Positions 29,631 to 63,027 of a stretch of DNA of 64,000 nucleotides are shown here, in pieces (within the stretch, counting starts at the first letter, position 1; every line of letters begins with the position of its first letter). The DNA is from Pengzhenrongella sicca (lineage in GTDB: Bacteria > Actinomycetota > Actinomycetes > Actinomycetales > Cellulomonadaceae). The notes under the pieces are model-generated. The model did not search any database, had not been told where the DNA came from, and saw only the letters and a program-made list of their open reading frames with translations. Both the position numbers and the translations under genes were made by a program. The DNA is taken from assembly GCF_017569225.1 (NCBI RefSeq), contig NZ_CP071868.1, forward strand, positions 2,914,001 to 2,978,000. Reading direction: 5' to 3'.

Positions 29631-31447
29631 CGGTCCTCGTCCTCCGTGCTGTCCGGGCGGGGTCGGTCGATGACGATCGTGGACGACTGCTCCGGCTCGC
29701 CCGAGCCGGACTCCATCCGCTCGCGCGCCGAGCCCTGCTCGCCGCGCCGATCCGCGTCACCGAGCAGCTGGTCGAGCAGCCCGGGATCCGGCTCGGCGTG
29801 GTCCATCGCCGCCACCTCCGGGTGGTGCAGGTCGAAGGCGGGGCGCTCGGACCGGATGCGCGGCAGCGACGTGAAGTTGTGCCGCGGCGGCGGGCAGCTC
29901 GTGGCCCACTCGAGCGAGCCGCCGAAGCCCCACGGGTCGTCGATCATGACCTTGGGCGCGTTGCGCCACGTCACGTAGACGTTCCACAGGAACGGCAGCG
30001 TCGACGCGGCCAGGAGCACGGACCCGATGGTCGACACCTGGTTCATCCAGGTGAAGCCGTCCTCGGCCGAGTAGTCGGCGTAGCGGCGCGGCATGCCGAC
30101 GACGCCGAGCCAGTGCTGGATGAGGAACGTCGCGTGGAAGCCGAAGAACAGCATCCAGAAGTGGATCTTGCCGAGCCGCTCGTCGAGCATGCGGCCGGTG
30201 AACTTCGGCCACCAGAAGTAGAACCCCGCGAACATCGCGAACACGACCGTGCCGAACACGACGTAGTGGAAGTGCGCGACGACGAAGTAGGTGTCGGTGA
30301 CGTGGAAGTCGAGCGGCGGGCTCGAGAGGATGATCCCGGTCAGCCCGCCGAACAGGAAGGTGATCAGGAAGCCGAGCGACCAGAGCATCGGGGTGTCGAA
30401 CGTCAGCTTTCCCCGCCACATCGTGCCGATCCAGTTGAAGAACTTCACCCCGGTCGGCACCGCGATGAGCATGGTCATCAGCGAGAAGAACGGCAGCAGC
30501 ACGGCCCCGGTCGCGTACATGTGGTGCGCCCACACGGTCACGGACAGCGCCGCGATCGCGATCGTCGCGTAGACGATGCCCTTGTAGCCGAACAGCGGCT
30601 TGCGGCTGAACACGGGCAGGATCTCCGAGACGATGCCGAAGAACGGCAGCGCGATGATGTAGACCTCCGGGTGCCCGAAGAACCAGAACAGGTGCTGCCA
30701 GAGGATGGCGCCCCCGTTCTCGGGGTTGAACACCTGGGCGCCGAGGCGCCGGTCGGCGCCGAGCGCGAACAGCGCCGCCGCGAGCGGCGGGAACGCCATG
30801 AGCACGAGCAGGCTGGTCACGAGCGTGTTCCAGGTGAAGATCGGCATCCGGAACATCGTCATGCCGGGCGCGCGCATCGTCACGATCGTCGTGATGAAGT
30901 TGACGGCACCGAGGATCGTGCCGAAGCCGGTCAGGGCGAGACCGAACACCCAGAGGTCTCCCCCGAGCCCGGGCGAGAACGCGGCGTTCGACAGCGGCGC
31001 GTAGGCGGTCCAGCCGAACGACGCGGCCCCCTGCGGGGTGAAGATGCCCGAGACGGCGATGAGGCCGCCGAACAGGTACAGCCAGTACGCGAACATGTTC
31101 AGCCGCGGGAACGCGACGTCGGGGGCGCCGATCTGCAGCGGCATGATCACGTTTGCGAAGCCCGCGAACAGCGGGGTCGCGAACAGCAGCAGCATGATCG
31201 TGCCGTGCATCGTGAAGAGCTGGTTGTACTGCTCGCGGCTCTGCACGAGCTGCAGGCCGGGCTCGAACAGCTCGGCGCGGATGAGCAGCGCCATGATGCC
31301 GGCGATGCCGAAGAAGATGAACGACGTGACCAGGTACATGTAGCCGATGGTCTTGTGGTCGGTCGAGGTGATGACCTTGATCACCGACCGGCCGAGGGAC
31401 TGCCGCCGGGGCGCGAGCCCCGGGATCTCGATCGCCGAGGTGGCCAT
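29627..31447 (-). CDS. ctaD: Cytochrome c oxidase subunit I
   Basis: The 606-residue catalytic subunit holds heme a and the heme a3-CuB centre. It has twelve helices. [12 protein letters not shown] gives a heme a histidine, [15 protein letters not shown] the CuB histidine and Tyr of the His-Tyr crosslink, WAHHMYATG two more CuB histidines, and [10 protein letters not shown] the heme a3 and heme a ligands. A charged C-terminal tail of about 90 residues, rich in Asp/Glu/Arg, is longer than in many relatives. The start overlaps the stop of ctaC (TGATG). Confidence 0.97.
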
Positions 31448-32337
31448 CAGTTCTCCTGTCCTTCGGCGCCCGATGCCTGGTCGCTCACGCGAGCGTCCTG
31501 CAACCGGCTGTACTCGAGGCCGAGCTGGCCGGTCTGACCCTTGGCGCGGAGCTCGTCCATGTGCTCGTCGTAGTCGGCGCGCGAGACGACGGCCACGTTG
31601 AAGAGCATCGACGAGTGGTACTCCCCGCACAGCTCGGCGCACTTGCCGGCGTAGACGCCGATCCGGGTCGGGACCACCTGGAAGGTGTTGGTGCGGCCCG
31701 GGATCACGTCGAGCTTGTACAGGAACGCCGGGATCCAGAACGAGTGGATCACGTCCCGCGAGTCGAGGGTGAACTCGACCCGCTCGTCCACCGGCAGGTA
31801 CAGCGTCGGGAGCTCGTCGAACGAGCCCTCGGCGGCCACGTCCTCCGCCTGCACGCCCGTCTCGTAGACGTCGTCGTCCACGTAGTTGAAGTCCCAGCTC
31901 CACTGCTTGCCGATGACGCCGATCGTGACGTCGGGCTGCTCCGTCGAGACGTCCGTGATCGCGGTCATGTCCCGCGCCGTGTAGTAGTACAGCACCCCGA
32001 TCATGACGATCGGCAGGATGACGTACATGATCTCGAGCGGCACGTGGTAGCGCAGCTGCACCGGCAGCGTGTCGTCGTCCTTGCGCTTGCGGTAGACCGC
32101 GACGCACCACAGGATCAGGCCCCAGGTGATGAGGCCGACGATGAGCGCGGCGATCCAGGAGCCGACCCACAGGCTCGTGATCCGGGCGGTCTGGTTGGTG
32201 ACCTCGCCGTCGTCGTACCCCGGCAGGAAGCCCCGCTCGGCCTGGGCCGAGCAGCCGGAGGCGACGAGGGTTACCGCCACGGCCAGGCCGACAAGCACTG
32301 CCTGTCGCCGGGTCCGACGGGGGTGTTCCGAGTGCAA
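31447..32337 (-). CDS. ctaC: Cytochrome c oxidase subunit II
   Basis: The 296-residue CuA subunit has a signal peptide ending in a lipobox (VASGC, C29), so the mature protein is probably a lipoprotein with two further helices. The CuA centre is formed by the histidine of [11 protein letters not shown] and by [14 protein letters not shown]. The start is a TTG at 32337, supported by GAGAGAGG a few bases upstream and by the position of the signal peptide. No ATG or GTG gives a better fit. Electrons come from QcrC. Confidence 0.95.
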
Positions 32338-32537
32338 GGTGCGACCTCTCTCGTCCAGTCCCGCAGGGCGCCGGCCAGATGGCCGGGCCGCTGGTCCGGG
32401 ACCTAAGTCCTCGACTCGCGCAGCCTAGCGCGTGCCTGTGCCCTGGGCCGCCGGAACTCGGCGTGTTGGTGGCGCCCCGCCGCCGCCGCGGCGGGCCGGC
32501 GCTCCGGCCGCGACCCGCACCGGGGCCCGGGGGTGAC

Positions 32538-32543
32538 TAGCGT
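32538..32543 (+). promoter_or_regulatory. -10-like hexamer TAGCGT of a leaderless transcript
   Basis: TAGCGT ends 7 bases before the ATG at 32550 of the desulfurase-like gene. Confidence 0.5.
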
Positions 32544-32549
32544 GCGGGG

Positions 32550-33797
32550 ATGACCAGCGACAGCAGCCCCACCCCGAGCCGGGGCGACGACCCGGGTGTG
32601 AGGCAGAACACAGCCGTCCGGGTGCCGCACGGCGCCGCCGGGCGCACCGTCCTGGACGTCGCGGGCCACGCGCCGCTGCACCCGGCCGCGCGCGCGGCGT
32701 TCGCCCAGGCGCTCGACGAGGGCTGGGCCGACCCGCGCCGCCTGCACGCCGAGGGTCGGCGCGCGCGGTCGCTGCTCGACGGCGCGCGGGCGTCGCTCGC
32801 CGCGGGGCTCGGCGCGCGCACCGAGGAGGTGTTCCTCGCCGGCTCGCACACGGCGGCCCTGCACGCCGCGGTGCGTGGGATCGCTCGCGGGCGGCGCCGG
32901 GTCGGGCGCGACGTCGTCGTCGGCGCGGTCGAGCGCGCGGCGTTGCTCGAGGCCGCCCGCTTCGCCGCCGCCGAACCGGCCGGGGCCGGCGCGGGCCCGG
33001 GCCGGCGCGTGGTCGTCGGGGTCGACGGCGCGGGCCGCGTGGACGCGGCCGCGATGGGCCGGGCGCTCGCCGCCCCGGGCGTCGCGCTCGTCGCGCTGCA
33101 GCACGCGAACGGCGAGGTCGGCACGCTCCAGCCGGTGTCCGAGGTGGCCGAGGCCGCGCGCCGGGCGGGCGTGCCGCTGCTGCTCGACGCGGGCGCGAGC
33201 GCCGGCCACGTCGAGCTCGGGCCGCAGTGGGACGCGCTGGCGGCGGACCCGGGCGACTGGGGCGGCCCGAGCGGCCTCGGCGTGCTCGCTGTGCGTCCGC
33301 GCGTGCGCTGGGCCGCCGACTGGCCCGAGGACGACGACGCCTGGTTCCCGGGCGGCGTGAGCGTGCCCGCGGCGCTGGCCGCGGCCGTCGCGCTCGAGCA
33401 CGCCGTGGCCGAGCGGGCCGGCGCGGACGCGCACCGGCGCCGCCTGGTCGATCGCATCCGCCGGACGGTCGCGGCGACCGTGCCCGACGTCGAGGTCGTC
33501 GGGGACGCCGCTGCCCGGCTCCCCCACGTCGTCACGTTCTCGTGCCTGTACGTCGACGGCGAGGCGCTCGTGGGCGAGCTGGACCGCCTCGGCTTCGCCG
33601 TCGGCTCCGGGTCGGCGTGCACGTCGAGCACGCTCGAGCCGAGCCACGTGCTCGCAGCGATGGGCGTGCTGACCCACGGCAACGTGCGCCTCGCGCTCCC
33701 AGTGGGCGCGACCGACGACGGCGTCGACCGGTTCCTCGCGGCGCTGCCCGGGGCGGTGCGCCGGGTGCGCGACCTGCTCGGCGTGACCGGGCTGTGA
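32550..33797 (+). CDS. Cysteine-desulfurase-like (class V aminotransferase fold) protein without lysine
   Basis: The 415-residue protein matches the NifS/IscS fold: VAGHAPLHPAARAAF, LQHANGEVGTLQPV, VPLLLDAGASAGHVEL, GGVSVPAALAAAVALE and a catalytic-type cysteine 357 in GSGSACTSSTLEPSHVL. The segment that normally holds the PLP Schiff-base lysine (SAHKFGGPKG-like) reads ADPGDWGGPSG, with Asp 236 in the lysine place, and the whole sequence contains no lysine. It therefore cannot form a PLP internal aldimine. It overlaps the TusA-like gene by GTGA. Sulfur handling through Cys357, independent of PLP chemistry, is possible; so is loss of activity. Confidence 0.82.
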   Translation: MTSDSSPTPSRGDDPGVRQNTAVRVPHGAAGRTVLDVAGHAPLHPAARAAFAQALDEGWADPRRLHAEGRRARSLLDGARASLAAGLGARTEEVFLAGSHTAALHAAVRGIARGRRRVGRDVVVGAVERAALLEAARFAAAEPAGAGAGPGRRVVVGVDGAGRVDAAAMGRALAAPGVALVALQHANGEVGTLQPVSEVAEAARRAGVPLLLDAGASAGHVELGPQWDALAADPGDWGGPSGLGVLAVRPRVRWAADWPEDDDAWFPGGVSVPAALAAAVALEHAVAERAGADAHRRRLVDRIRRTVAATVPDVEVVGDAAARLPHVVTFSCLYVDGEALVGELDRLGFAVGSGSACTSSTLEPSHVLAAMGVLTHGNVRLALPVGATDDGVDRFLAALPGAVRRVRDLLGVTGL

Positions 33798-34099
33798 CCG
33801 ATCCCGTGATCGTGGACGCGCGGGGCCTACGGTGCCCGCTGCCCGTCATCGAGCTGGCCAGAGCCGCGCGCGACGCCGCGCCCGGGTCCCTCCTGACTGT
33901 CCTGGCCACCGACCCGGCGGCGCGCTACGACGTGCCCGCCTGGGCGCGGCTGCGCGGCCACGAGCTCGTGGCGATCACCGCGAACGCAATCGACATGGAC
34001 GGCGCCGACGCGAGCGACACCGACATGGACGGCGCCGAGCTCGCGATCACCGTCCGCACGGCCGGTGACGCAGAACGTCCGGGCGCCGGACGCCCGTAG
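33794..34099 (+). CDS. TusA/SirA-family sulfur carrier-like protein
   Basis: The product is 101 residues from a GTG that overlaps the stop of the desulfurase-like gene. DARGLRCPLPVIELARA is the TusA signature, with cysteine 14 as the persulfide carrier in the CPxP motif. The fold continues through SLLTVLATDPAARYDVPAWA and ends with GAELAITVRTAGDA. A short insert with repeated DMDGA lies before the last strand. TusA proteins take sulfur from cysteine desulfurases for tRNA thiolation or other acceptors. The coupling to a lysine-free desulfurase-like partner is the odd feature. Confidence 0.88.
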   Translation: MTDPVIVDARGLRCPLPVIELARAARDAAPGSLLTVLATDPAARYDVPAWARLRGHELVAITANAIDMDGADASDTDMDGAELAITVRTAGDAERPGAGRP

Positions 34100-34148: not shown

Positions 34149-34499
34149 TCAGCCGAACGAGCCGCCGCACGCGCAGGAGCTGCCCGCGTTCGGGTTGTCG
34201 ATCGTGAAGCCCTGCTTCTCGATCGTGTCCGCGAAGTCGATCGTCGCGCCGTCGAGGTACGGCACGCTCATGCGGTCCACGACCACCTCGACGCCGTCGT
34301 AGTCGCGCACGGCGTCGCCGTCGAGCACGCGCTCGTCGAAGTACAGCTGGTAGATCAGGCCCGAGCAGCCGCCGGGCTGGACGGCGACGCGCAGCCGGAG
34401 GTCGTCGCGCCCCTCCTGCTCGAGCAGGCTGCGAATCTTGCTCGCGGCAAAGTCTGTGAGGTCGACGCCGTGCGTCGCGGTCTCGGTGGTCTCGCTCAT
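34149..34499 (-). CDS. erpA: Iron-sulfur cluster insertion protein (A-type carrier)
   Basis: The 116-residue A-type carrier delivers Fe-S clusters to apoproteins. The three cysteines are C45 (QPGGCSGLIYQLYFD), C109 and C111 (SSCACGGSFG). VDRMSVPYLDGATIDF and FTIDNPNA are family hallmarks. It corresponds to M. tuberculosis Rv2204c. Cluster-requiring clients close by are QcrA, NadA and LipA. The ATG at 34499 is used; the frame continues upstream without conservation. Confidence 0.93.
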   Translation of the reverse strand: MSETTETATHGVDLTDFAASKIRSLLEQEGRDDLRLRVAVQPGGCSGLIYQLYFDERVLDGDAVRDYDGVEVVVDRMSVPYLDGATIDFADTIEKQGFTIDNPNAGSSCACGGSFG

Positions 34500-61931: not shown

Positions 61932-62232
61932 TTTCTGCATCTGAGGGCGCGTCTTCAGTTGTGGTCCGGATCGGTGCCTCTGACACGCAGATCCCGACCA
62001 CAACTCGCCGAGACTCGACGAAGGCGACTCGCCCCCCGAGACAGAGGAGCAGGACCGCCTCGAGCGGGCAGGAACGTACGAGGCAAGAAGCGCGAGCGGT
62101 CGCTGCCCAGCCATACAGCGAGGCACTGCGTTTCGGCAGGCTCCGAGGTCCGACGCCGCAGCTGTCGATAGTCTCCGAACGCGAGGGGCAGGCACGGACT
62201 GCCCAGCCCACATGCACAGGACGGGGGCCGTG
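61932..62232. other. Gene-free stretch between glnA terminator and methyltransferase
   Basis: About 300 bases of lower GC than the flanks. Short frames on both strands show no conserved motif. The promoter of the methyltransferase gene should lie at its right end. Confidence 0.4.
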
Positions 62233-63027
62233 ATGACTGCGAGGCGCGACGACGGCAGCGCCGGCGACGCCGACTACGGCCAGATCGGCGCGTCGTACGC
62301 CGCCTACCGCCGCCCCGACCCGAGGATCGCGGCGGCCATCCTCAGCGCCGTGGGGTCGGCACGCACGATCCTCAACGTCGGTGCGGGCGCCGGGTCGTAC
62401 GAGCCGGTCGACCGGCAGGTCACGGCGGTAGAACCCTCGGAGTCGATGCGCGCCCAGCGCCCGACCGAGCGAGCAACCGCCGTCGACGCCACCGCCGAGA
62501 ACCTGCCGTTCCCCGACCGGTCGTTCGACGCCGCCATGACGACGTTCAGCATCCATCAGTGGGGCGACCTCGACGCGGGCCTGCGCGAGATGCGGCGCGT
62601 CACCCGTGGACCCGTCGTCATCCTGACCTGCGACCCGGCCCTGCTCGACCGCTTCTGGCTCGCGGAGTACGCCCCGGGCGTCATCAGCGCCGAGGCTGGC
62701 CGGTACCCGCCGATCGCCGCCATCGCGCGCGTCCTGGGGGACGTCGAGGTGACCGGCGTCCCGATCCCGCTCGACTGCGTCGACGGGTTCAACGAGGCCT
62801 ACTACGGACGGCCTGAGGCCCTGCTCGATCCGCTGGCGCGCACCTCGTGCTCAGCGTGGAGCTTCGTGGACGAGCGCACGGCCGCGGCGTACGTCGACCG
62901 CCTCGCCGCGGACCTGGCCGACGGCGGCTGGGACCGCCGCCACGGCGACCTCCGGACCCAACCCACGTTCGACGGCTCGCTCGTCCTGGTGGTCAGCCGA
63001 CCCGCGGCCACTCCTCGGGTGCCGTGA
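62233..63027 (+). CDS. Class I SAM-dependent methyltransferase
   Basis: The 264-residue enzyme has a Methyltransf_11-like fold. DYGQIGASYAAYRRPDPRIA precedes motif I, TILNVGAGAGSYEP. An acidic post-II residue (VEPSE), ATAENLPFPDRSFDAAMTTF and HQWGDLDAGLREMRRVTRGP complete the SAM site. The C-terminal domain would select an unknown substrate. The ATG at 62233 is preferred; an upstream ATG at 62212 in the same frame adds seven residues. Confidence 0.88.
   Translation: MTARRDDGSAGDADYGQIGASYAAYRRPDPRIAAAILSAVGSARTILNVGAGAGSYEPVDRQVTAVEPSESMRAQRPTERATAVDATAENLPFPDRSFDAAMTTFSIHQWGDLDAGLREMRRVTRGPVVILTCDPALLDRFWLAEYAPGVISAEAGRYPPIAAIARVLGDVEVTGVPIPLDCVDGFNEAYYGRPEALLDPLARTSCSAWSFVDERTAAAYVDRLAADLADGGWDRRHGDLRTQPTFDGSLVLVVSRPAATPRVP

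Follow-up and report, generated by a model that had tools for sequence, protein, structure and literature searches.

A Lysine-less Branch of TusA-Coupled Cysteine Desulfurase-like Proteins in Actinomycetes as a Candidate Persulfide Relay

Related Systems

Two overlapping genes of Pengzhenrongella sicca, one for a cysteine desulfurase-like protein of 415 residues and the other for a TusA-family carrier, are analyzed here. They lie in a 64,000-nucleotide stretch of contig NZ_CP071868.1 (positions 2,914,001 to 2,978,000), which is called the window. In the desulfurase-like protein, aspartate occupies the place of the lysine that forms the Schiff base with pyridoxal 5′-phosphate (PLP). According to excerpts of the report on Escherichia coli IscS (PMC2854127), Lys206 and Cys328 are the corresponding PLP lysine and loop cysteine, and Cys328 hands sulfur to Cys19 of TusA across the dimer. 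The window pair resembles the E. coli pair in its loop cysteine as a potential donor and its TusA as a potential acceptor with the equivalents of Cys19, Asp45, and Asp51. It differs in that E. coli IscS is PLP-dependent and serves many acceptors; in P. sicca, MnmA adjoins its own IscS.

The closest sequence with a solved structure is IscS of Archaeoglobus fulgidus (PDB 4eb5, 4eb7, and 4hvk; 4r5f is titled as the D199K mutant). It shows the same change of lysine to aspartate and keeps the fold and the cysteine. In the excerpted text of PMC7585200, this protein is described as having no desulfurase activity and as contributing a cysteine that ligates the [2Fe-2S] cluster in IscU. The same excerpts report that Methanosarcina acetivorans IscS1 likewise lacks the essential lysine, discuss it together with IscU1, and describe the recombinant protein as insoluble (PMC7585200). 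An earlier reading of the window made from the letters alone (the sequence-only reading) had omitted the A. fulgidus precedent. Lysine-less IscS is thus already published, and the actinomycete form coupled to TusA appears to be what is new. Among the papers listed in a literature search that most subscription journals fell outside, none dealt with a TusA-coupled lysine-less desulfurase family by its title or abstract. Helicobacter pylori SelA was considered as another precedent for lysine loss and was rejected, as its lysine is conserved according to excerpts of PMC4607533.

A. fulgidus IscS is archaeal and acts with IscU in the excerpts of PMC7585200, whereas the window family is tied to TusA. 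It keeps the histidine of the His104 type, whereas the window family has lost the equivalents of His104, Ser203, and His205. The loss in the window family is likely to be independent, as it is nested among lysine-bearing actinomycete orthologues in a tree of the family. These lysine-bearing orthologues share the ctaC synteny, the linked or fused TusA, and the cysteine loop with the 415-residue protein. Unlike it, they have retained the lysine and, for the greater part, the PLP pocket.

The Overlapping Desulfurase-like and TusA Genes

The coordinates of the locus are given in Table 1. Residues were numbered by alignment to the K-12 record of E. coli IscS, where positions 236, 357, and 129 correspond to Lys206, Cys328, and His104. 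The 415-residue protein belongs to the class V aminotransferase/desulfurase fold; it matches Aminotran_5 of Pfam (E = 3e-26), and its predicted fold is intact. It stays under every NCBIfam desulfurase cut-off, the best being NifS (188.9 bits against 530.75). The 101-residue protein matches TusA of Pfam (PF01206, E = 1.6e-18, 66.7 bits against a cut-off of 28.6) and is the sole PF01206 match found in the P. sicca genome; it is below the NCBIfam TusA equivalog cut-off (48.6 bits against 78). The overlap of the two genes implies that they are probably translationally coupled. The first ~30 residues of the 415-residue protein have low confidence in the predicted model, and many orthologue matches start near residue 30. 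The true start could therefore be further downstream than the annotated ATG.

What the sequence-only reading had described at this locus, namely the 415-residue protein, Asp 236, Cys 357, the GTGA overlap with a CPxP-bearing TusA gene, and the absence of lysine from both proteins, was confirmed throughout. The substitution at position 236 is not isolated. At the sites of IscS H104, S203, H205, and Q183, the protein has R129, D233, G235, and A216, and the equivalent of D180 is kept. We take H104 to stack on PLP, D180 to contact its pyridine, and S203, H205, and Q183 to be further PLP-binding residues. In the catalytic loop, C357 is present.

Table 1. Features of the locus (positions in the window)
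Feature	Position	Strand	Remark
Presumed ctaC, cytochrome c oxidase subunit II	31447..32337	-	divergent neighbour, kept with and without lysine
Desulfurase-like protein without PLP lysine (P0001)	32550..33797	+	ATG to TGA, 415 residues, 0 lysine
Codon 129, CGC (Arg)	32934..32936	+	aligns with IscS His104
Codon 236, GAC (Asp)	33255..33257	+	aligns with Schiff-base lysine, IscS Lys206
Codon 357, TGC (Cys)	33618..33620	+	mobile-loop cysteine (IscS Cys328), in GSGSACTSS
GTGA stop/start overlap	33794..33797	+	from desulfurase-like gene to TusA gene
TusA-family carrier (P0002)	33794..34099	+	101 residues, no lysine, GTG start, CPLP motif
Presumed erpA/IscA-type protein	34149..34499	-	convergent neighbour

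Clade-Wide Loss of the PLP Lysine

Orthologues were collected from 59 related genomes, 394 genomes of the class, 396 genomes of the order, and the best 80 of 558 loci in a named genome collection. In the order search, 107 of the 396 genomes had a match with E of 1e-66 or lower. The 229 loci correspond to 206 distinct sequences; L002 and L188 served as the outgroup of ordinary desulfurases, and 204 family members remain. Position 236 is lysine in 98 of them and another residue in 106. The lysine-bearing orthologues (Streptomyces, Kitasatospora, Kribbella, Nocardioides, and Micromonosporaceae) are 48-58% identical to the 415-residue protein. Another 40 sequences, from families outside the lysine-less group, all have lysine at 236 along with C357 (40/40).

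Trees of 115 rows and, more carefully, of 55 rows were built with the trait columns masked. Most rows of the lysine-less group that were omitted share 76% or more identity with one that was included, and some others are too short; the 55-row tree also drops the long-branched L178, L186, L187, and L189. Both trees require at least six changes of the lysine state, one old loss in a clade and five isolated ones. The main lysine-less clade is supported at 89 in the 115-row tree and at 99/93 in the 55-row tree. Among the 106 lysine-less members, 101 were treated as one group defined by the absence of the lysine (55 are in the 115-row tree and 25 in the 55-row tree). The group covers Cellulomonadaceae, Promicromonosporaceae, Sanguibacteraceae, Jonesiaceae, Demequinaceae, Intrasporangiaceae, and the families labeled f1, f5, f9, f12, f15, f17, and f18. 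Outside it, there are five losses in 143 sequences: L089 (His), L108 (Thr), L209 (Gln), L212 (Ala), and L223 (Ala). All five keep the loop cysteine and a linked TusA. L089 also keeps the equivalents of H104 and S203, with much of the pocket intact, and might still use PLP or pyridoxamine 5′-phosphate (PMP).

Judging from these trees, the lysine loss is a clade-wide trait that goes back to a single loss in the lineage of the order that contains P. sicca. The sequence-only reading had regarded homologues with Lys 236 as a sign of a local mutation or sequencing error. Such homologues make up nearly half of the family, as counted above, and a local mutation or error is excluded by the tree, the synteny, and the ratio of nonsynonymous to synonymous substitution rates (dN/dS).

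Most of the pocket has disappeared together with the lysine. In the 101-member group, position 236 is Asp in 76, Ser in 13, Ala in eight, Thr in two, Gly in one, and Glu in one, and no lysine occurs anywhere in positions 230-242. The H104 site is Arg in 83 members and His in 15, whereas it is His in all 98 lysine-bearing members. Asp is found at the S203 site in 87 members and Ser in three. The H205 site is never His, and the Q183 site is Ala or Ser in 98 of 101. Only the D180 site is unchanged among these, with Asp in 101/101. The sequence-only reading had proposed a structural model for judging the pocket. The fold is intact in the predicted model, and in the alignment the PLP-site residues are mostly replaced alongside the lysine. 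The 415-residue protein is likely to be devoid of PLP.

The loop cysteine is kept in 100/100 readable rows of the group, and the R354 site is Arg in 100 members; one row is truncated at both sites. Over 21 lysine-less pairs, the median dN/dS is 0.16 (range 0.089-0.213). Two lysine-bearing pairs gave 1.79 and 3.07, which are seemingly artefacts of codon indexing, as rows L065 and L138 had lost a stop sign. The lysine and the cofactor pocket have been lost, while the cysteine half is under purifying selection.

Linked, Fused, and Unlinked TusA

The co-occurrence of adjacent or fused TusA, suggested as a check by the sequence-only reading, was observed in all 97 testable lysine-bearing members and in 84 of the 105 testable lysine-less members. 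Eleven of the lysine-bearing partners were found by profile only, one of them partial. There are 14 fusions among lysine-bearing members, nine from Streptomyces or Kitasatospora and five from family f37; L071 is not a fusion, having a stop between the desulfurase and TusA frames. L173 (4001-5434) is the single natural fusion without lysine. Its AlphaFold2 model is poor (predicted local distance difference test 70.2, predicted template modeling score 0.66). The four-base stop/start overlap is seen in 69/81 lysine-less and 55/70 lysine-bearing pairs, when the start closest to that overlap is picked. The linked TusA has the CPxP cysteine and the equivalents of E. coli TusA Asp45 and Asp51. The collection pattern demanded CPxP, so the cysteines (81/81 and 70/70) are true by selection, and the two aspartates are not. 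Among the 59 relatives, the desulfurase-like protein (at E of 1e-53 or lower) occurs together with a TusA-type match in 32 and without one in three; none has TusA only, and 24 have neither. A divergent second copy of the pair, L178 (G553:C6:58545-67651), comes from an f9-family genome of 1.9 Mb; several cysteines stand in its loop (GCGCTCG), and the CPxP cysteine is missing from its linked TusA.

Twelve genomes were chosen for a missing or degenerate linked TusA. Eight of them (G010, G028, G597, G726, G734, G752, G770, and G570) carry an unlinked TusA-like protein, in which GGDLGCARLL or DLSC replaces CPxP. Loci of this type are L255-L262, L266, L267, and L300-L304 (e.g., G726:C1:3322606-3322860). 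Strong unlinked matches (E under 1e-18) were found in 17 of the 396 order genomes, and all 17 belong to the set of 107 that carry the desulfurase-like gene (hypergeometric P = 8e-11, computed ignoring relatedness). All 11 unlinked-type genomes of families f1 and f17 are without linked TusA. All six of family f15 have both types. No common neighbour of the unlinked gene was seen at four loci, a weak result, since the approximate gene call picked up the protein itself at just one of them. At L248, L249, L250, and L254, a TusA domain (LDCTGLACPGPI) lies within open frames of more than 700 residues, which we presume may be of the coenzyme A-disulfide-reductase type.

Other Sulfur Sources in the Genome

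Eight Aminotran_5 matches were found in all in the P. sicca genome. Three lysine-bearing proteins are among the potential sulfur sources: SufS in a SUF cluster beside a SufU-like gene, a CsdA-like protein near a rhodanese-like frame, and IscS (L002, SAHK) directly adjoining MnmA. MnmA was assigned by PF03054; the other labels (SufS, SufU-like, CsdA-like, rhodanese-like, and IscS) are those we take to fit the sequences. A role of the linked TusA in a TusBCDE relay was considered and set aside. The genome has one DsrE-family match, and MnmA adjoins the lysine-bearing IscS.

Possible Function and Alternatives

The lysine loss, the pocket loss, the kept cysteine, and the TusA partner are what a PLP-independent relay or scaffold would predict. 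To this extent, the function proposed by the sequence-only reading agrees with the kept cysteine loop and, in most members, the TusA partner; receipt and transfer of persulfide are the conjectural part of it. We see an even chance that this lysine-less branch of actinomycete TusA-coupled cysteine desulfurases is now a PLP-free persulfide relay or docking subunit. Members with the lysine presumably use PLP to take sulfur from cysteine, and their loop cysteine would then hand it as a persulfide to the linked or fused TusA. Along the lineage of the order to which P. sicca belongs, the PLP half would have been lost once, and the lysine and the greater part of the cofactor pocket would have gone with it. 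Purifying selection would have retained the second half, made up of the loop cysteine and Arg 380 and, for the majority of members, TusA. Another desulfurase of the cell (SufS, IscS beside MnmA, or the CsdA-like protein) may load Cys 357 directly or via a carrier, and Cys 357 may then pass the sulfur to Cys 14 of TusA. On the simplest view, the first half-reaction could be dispensed with once another desulfurase was able to load the cysteine, and the second half remained. As a guess from the conserved neighbourhood of ctaC/ctaD, erpA, and nadA, the relay may help to supply Fe-S clusters to proteins of respiration or NAD synthesis. A broader proposal is more tentative: there may be a widespread class of PLP-free relays, formed from cysteine desulfurases by at least six losses in Actinomycetes, in which desulfuration and delivery are separable and the relay is fed by another desulfurase and serves a dedicated TusA, either linked or replaced by an unlinked one.

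Several observations weigh against a relay to TusA. In 20 lysine-less members, no TusA is present in the available downstream sequence, and all 20 keep the loop cysteine. Among the 12 genomes above, G044 and G008 have a TusA domain solely inside a large protein, G553 has one in a large protein as well as a linked copy that lacks the cysteine, and no TusA of any kind could be found in G455 (73% complete). G008, G032, and G044 have the desulfurase-like gene with its cysteine and neither a linked- nor an unlinked-type match; hence, TusA cannot be its only partner. The overlap of the genes makes the linked co-occurrence trivial in part, and the genomes are related, so that the P values for co-occurrence do not come from independent trials. 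Of four E. coli helix residues at the TusA interface, D52 and R55 alone have similar counterparts in the window protein, and W45 and E49 have none.

The main rival is a scaffold or ligand role as in A. fulgidus IscS, in which Cys 357, together with a partner such as ErpA or SufU, would hold a metal or an Fe-S cluster and no sulfur would be moved. It has the kept cysteine as a common basis with the persulfide relay, and the 20 members that keep the cysteine without TusA speak for it. The same lysine-to-aspartate change in 4eb5 and 4hvk and the inactive, cluster-ligating archaeal protein described in the excerpts of PMC7585200 also favour this role. An erpA match lies downstream in 46/50 lysine-less and 28/34 lysine-bearing loci with enough sequence. 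However, erpA is convergent and is linked to lysine-bearing members as well, and the partner that overlaps and co-occurs is a carrier of sulfur. Among the neighbouring frames in the window none resembled IscU, although no IscU family search was made. We consider this role unlikely, though a serious candidate. Less probable still is a non-catalytic subunit or regulator, which would form a heterodimer with an active desulfurase, dock on it, or stabilize TusA. The nearest paralogue in the genome is distant (37-40% identity), and a loop cysteine in 100/100 members exceeds the need of a structural role.

Enzymes of the same fold type that use PLP or PMP without a lysine exist, such as ColD with a histidine, and the pyridine-contacting Asp (in the role we assume for IscS D180) is kept in the whole group. 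Continued use of PLP or PMP without the Schiff-base lysine is nevertheless improbable for the window protein: the equivalents of His104, Ser203, His205, and Gln183 are mostly replaced in the group, and two positions around the phosphate and lysine sites are occupied by Asp in the protein. Such use may be more open for isolated losses such as L089. A sequencing error or a decaying pseudogene, for which nothing speaks beyond the unusual residue, is refuted by the 101 group members, the low dN/dS in all 21 pairs, and the conserved synteny.

If the persulfide relay is real, the half-reactions of cysteine desulfurase would have been split in nature, and the orthologues that still bear the lysine at this locus would serve as ready-made controls. 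The desulfurase fold could then work as a cofactor-free sulfur relay, and the archaeal precedent would gain a bacterial counterpart in a large clade that uses another partner. To call proteins of the lysine-less family cysteine desulfurases would then be a misnaming, and a little-noticed sulfur-delivery module would exist beside the cytochrome oxidase genes of Actinomycetes.

Lysine Content

The sequence-only reading had stressed that the protein contains no lysine at all. The count is true, and the total absence is mostly a matter of composition; the meaningful part is position 236. Lysine makes up 1.9% of the residues across 47 mechanically picked open reading frames (ORFs) of the window, which gives P of ~3e-4 for zero in 415 residues; the pick is rough, as an antisense frame was taken over the desulfurase-like gene itself. 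Six of these 47 ORFs are likewise without lysine. One lysine-free ORF of the window, picked mechanically, is 62212-63027 (271 residues). The lysine-less clade has 0.11 lysine per 100 residues, with none in the aligned core of 80/101 members, and the lysine-bearing group has 0.31 per 100 with position 236 left out. Zero lysine as a selected trait is unsupported, as the family is lysine-poor and other ORFs of the window are lysine-free.

Gene Neighbourhood

The names ctaC, ctaD, erpA, glxK, nadA, and sodA are those we take to fit the sequences. Among loci with enough sequence, a ctaC match was found in 55/56 lysine-less and 42/42 lysine-bearing ones, and a nadA match in 38/50 and 13/34, respectively. 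In the printed gene orders, ctaC is directly upstream of the desulfurase-like gene on the other strand. The locus is thus the same in both kinds of members, in support of orthology and of a setting that has not changed. The sequence-only reading had placed erpA after the pair. The gene is present there, but it is on the opposite strand and therefore convergent and outside the operon. On the other side of the pair, the ctaC and desulfurase-TusA genes (31447-32549), which diverge from each other throughout Actinomycetes, may share a control region.
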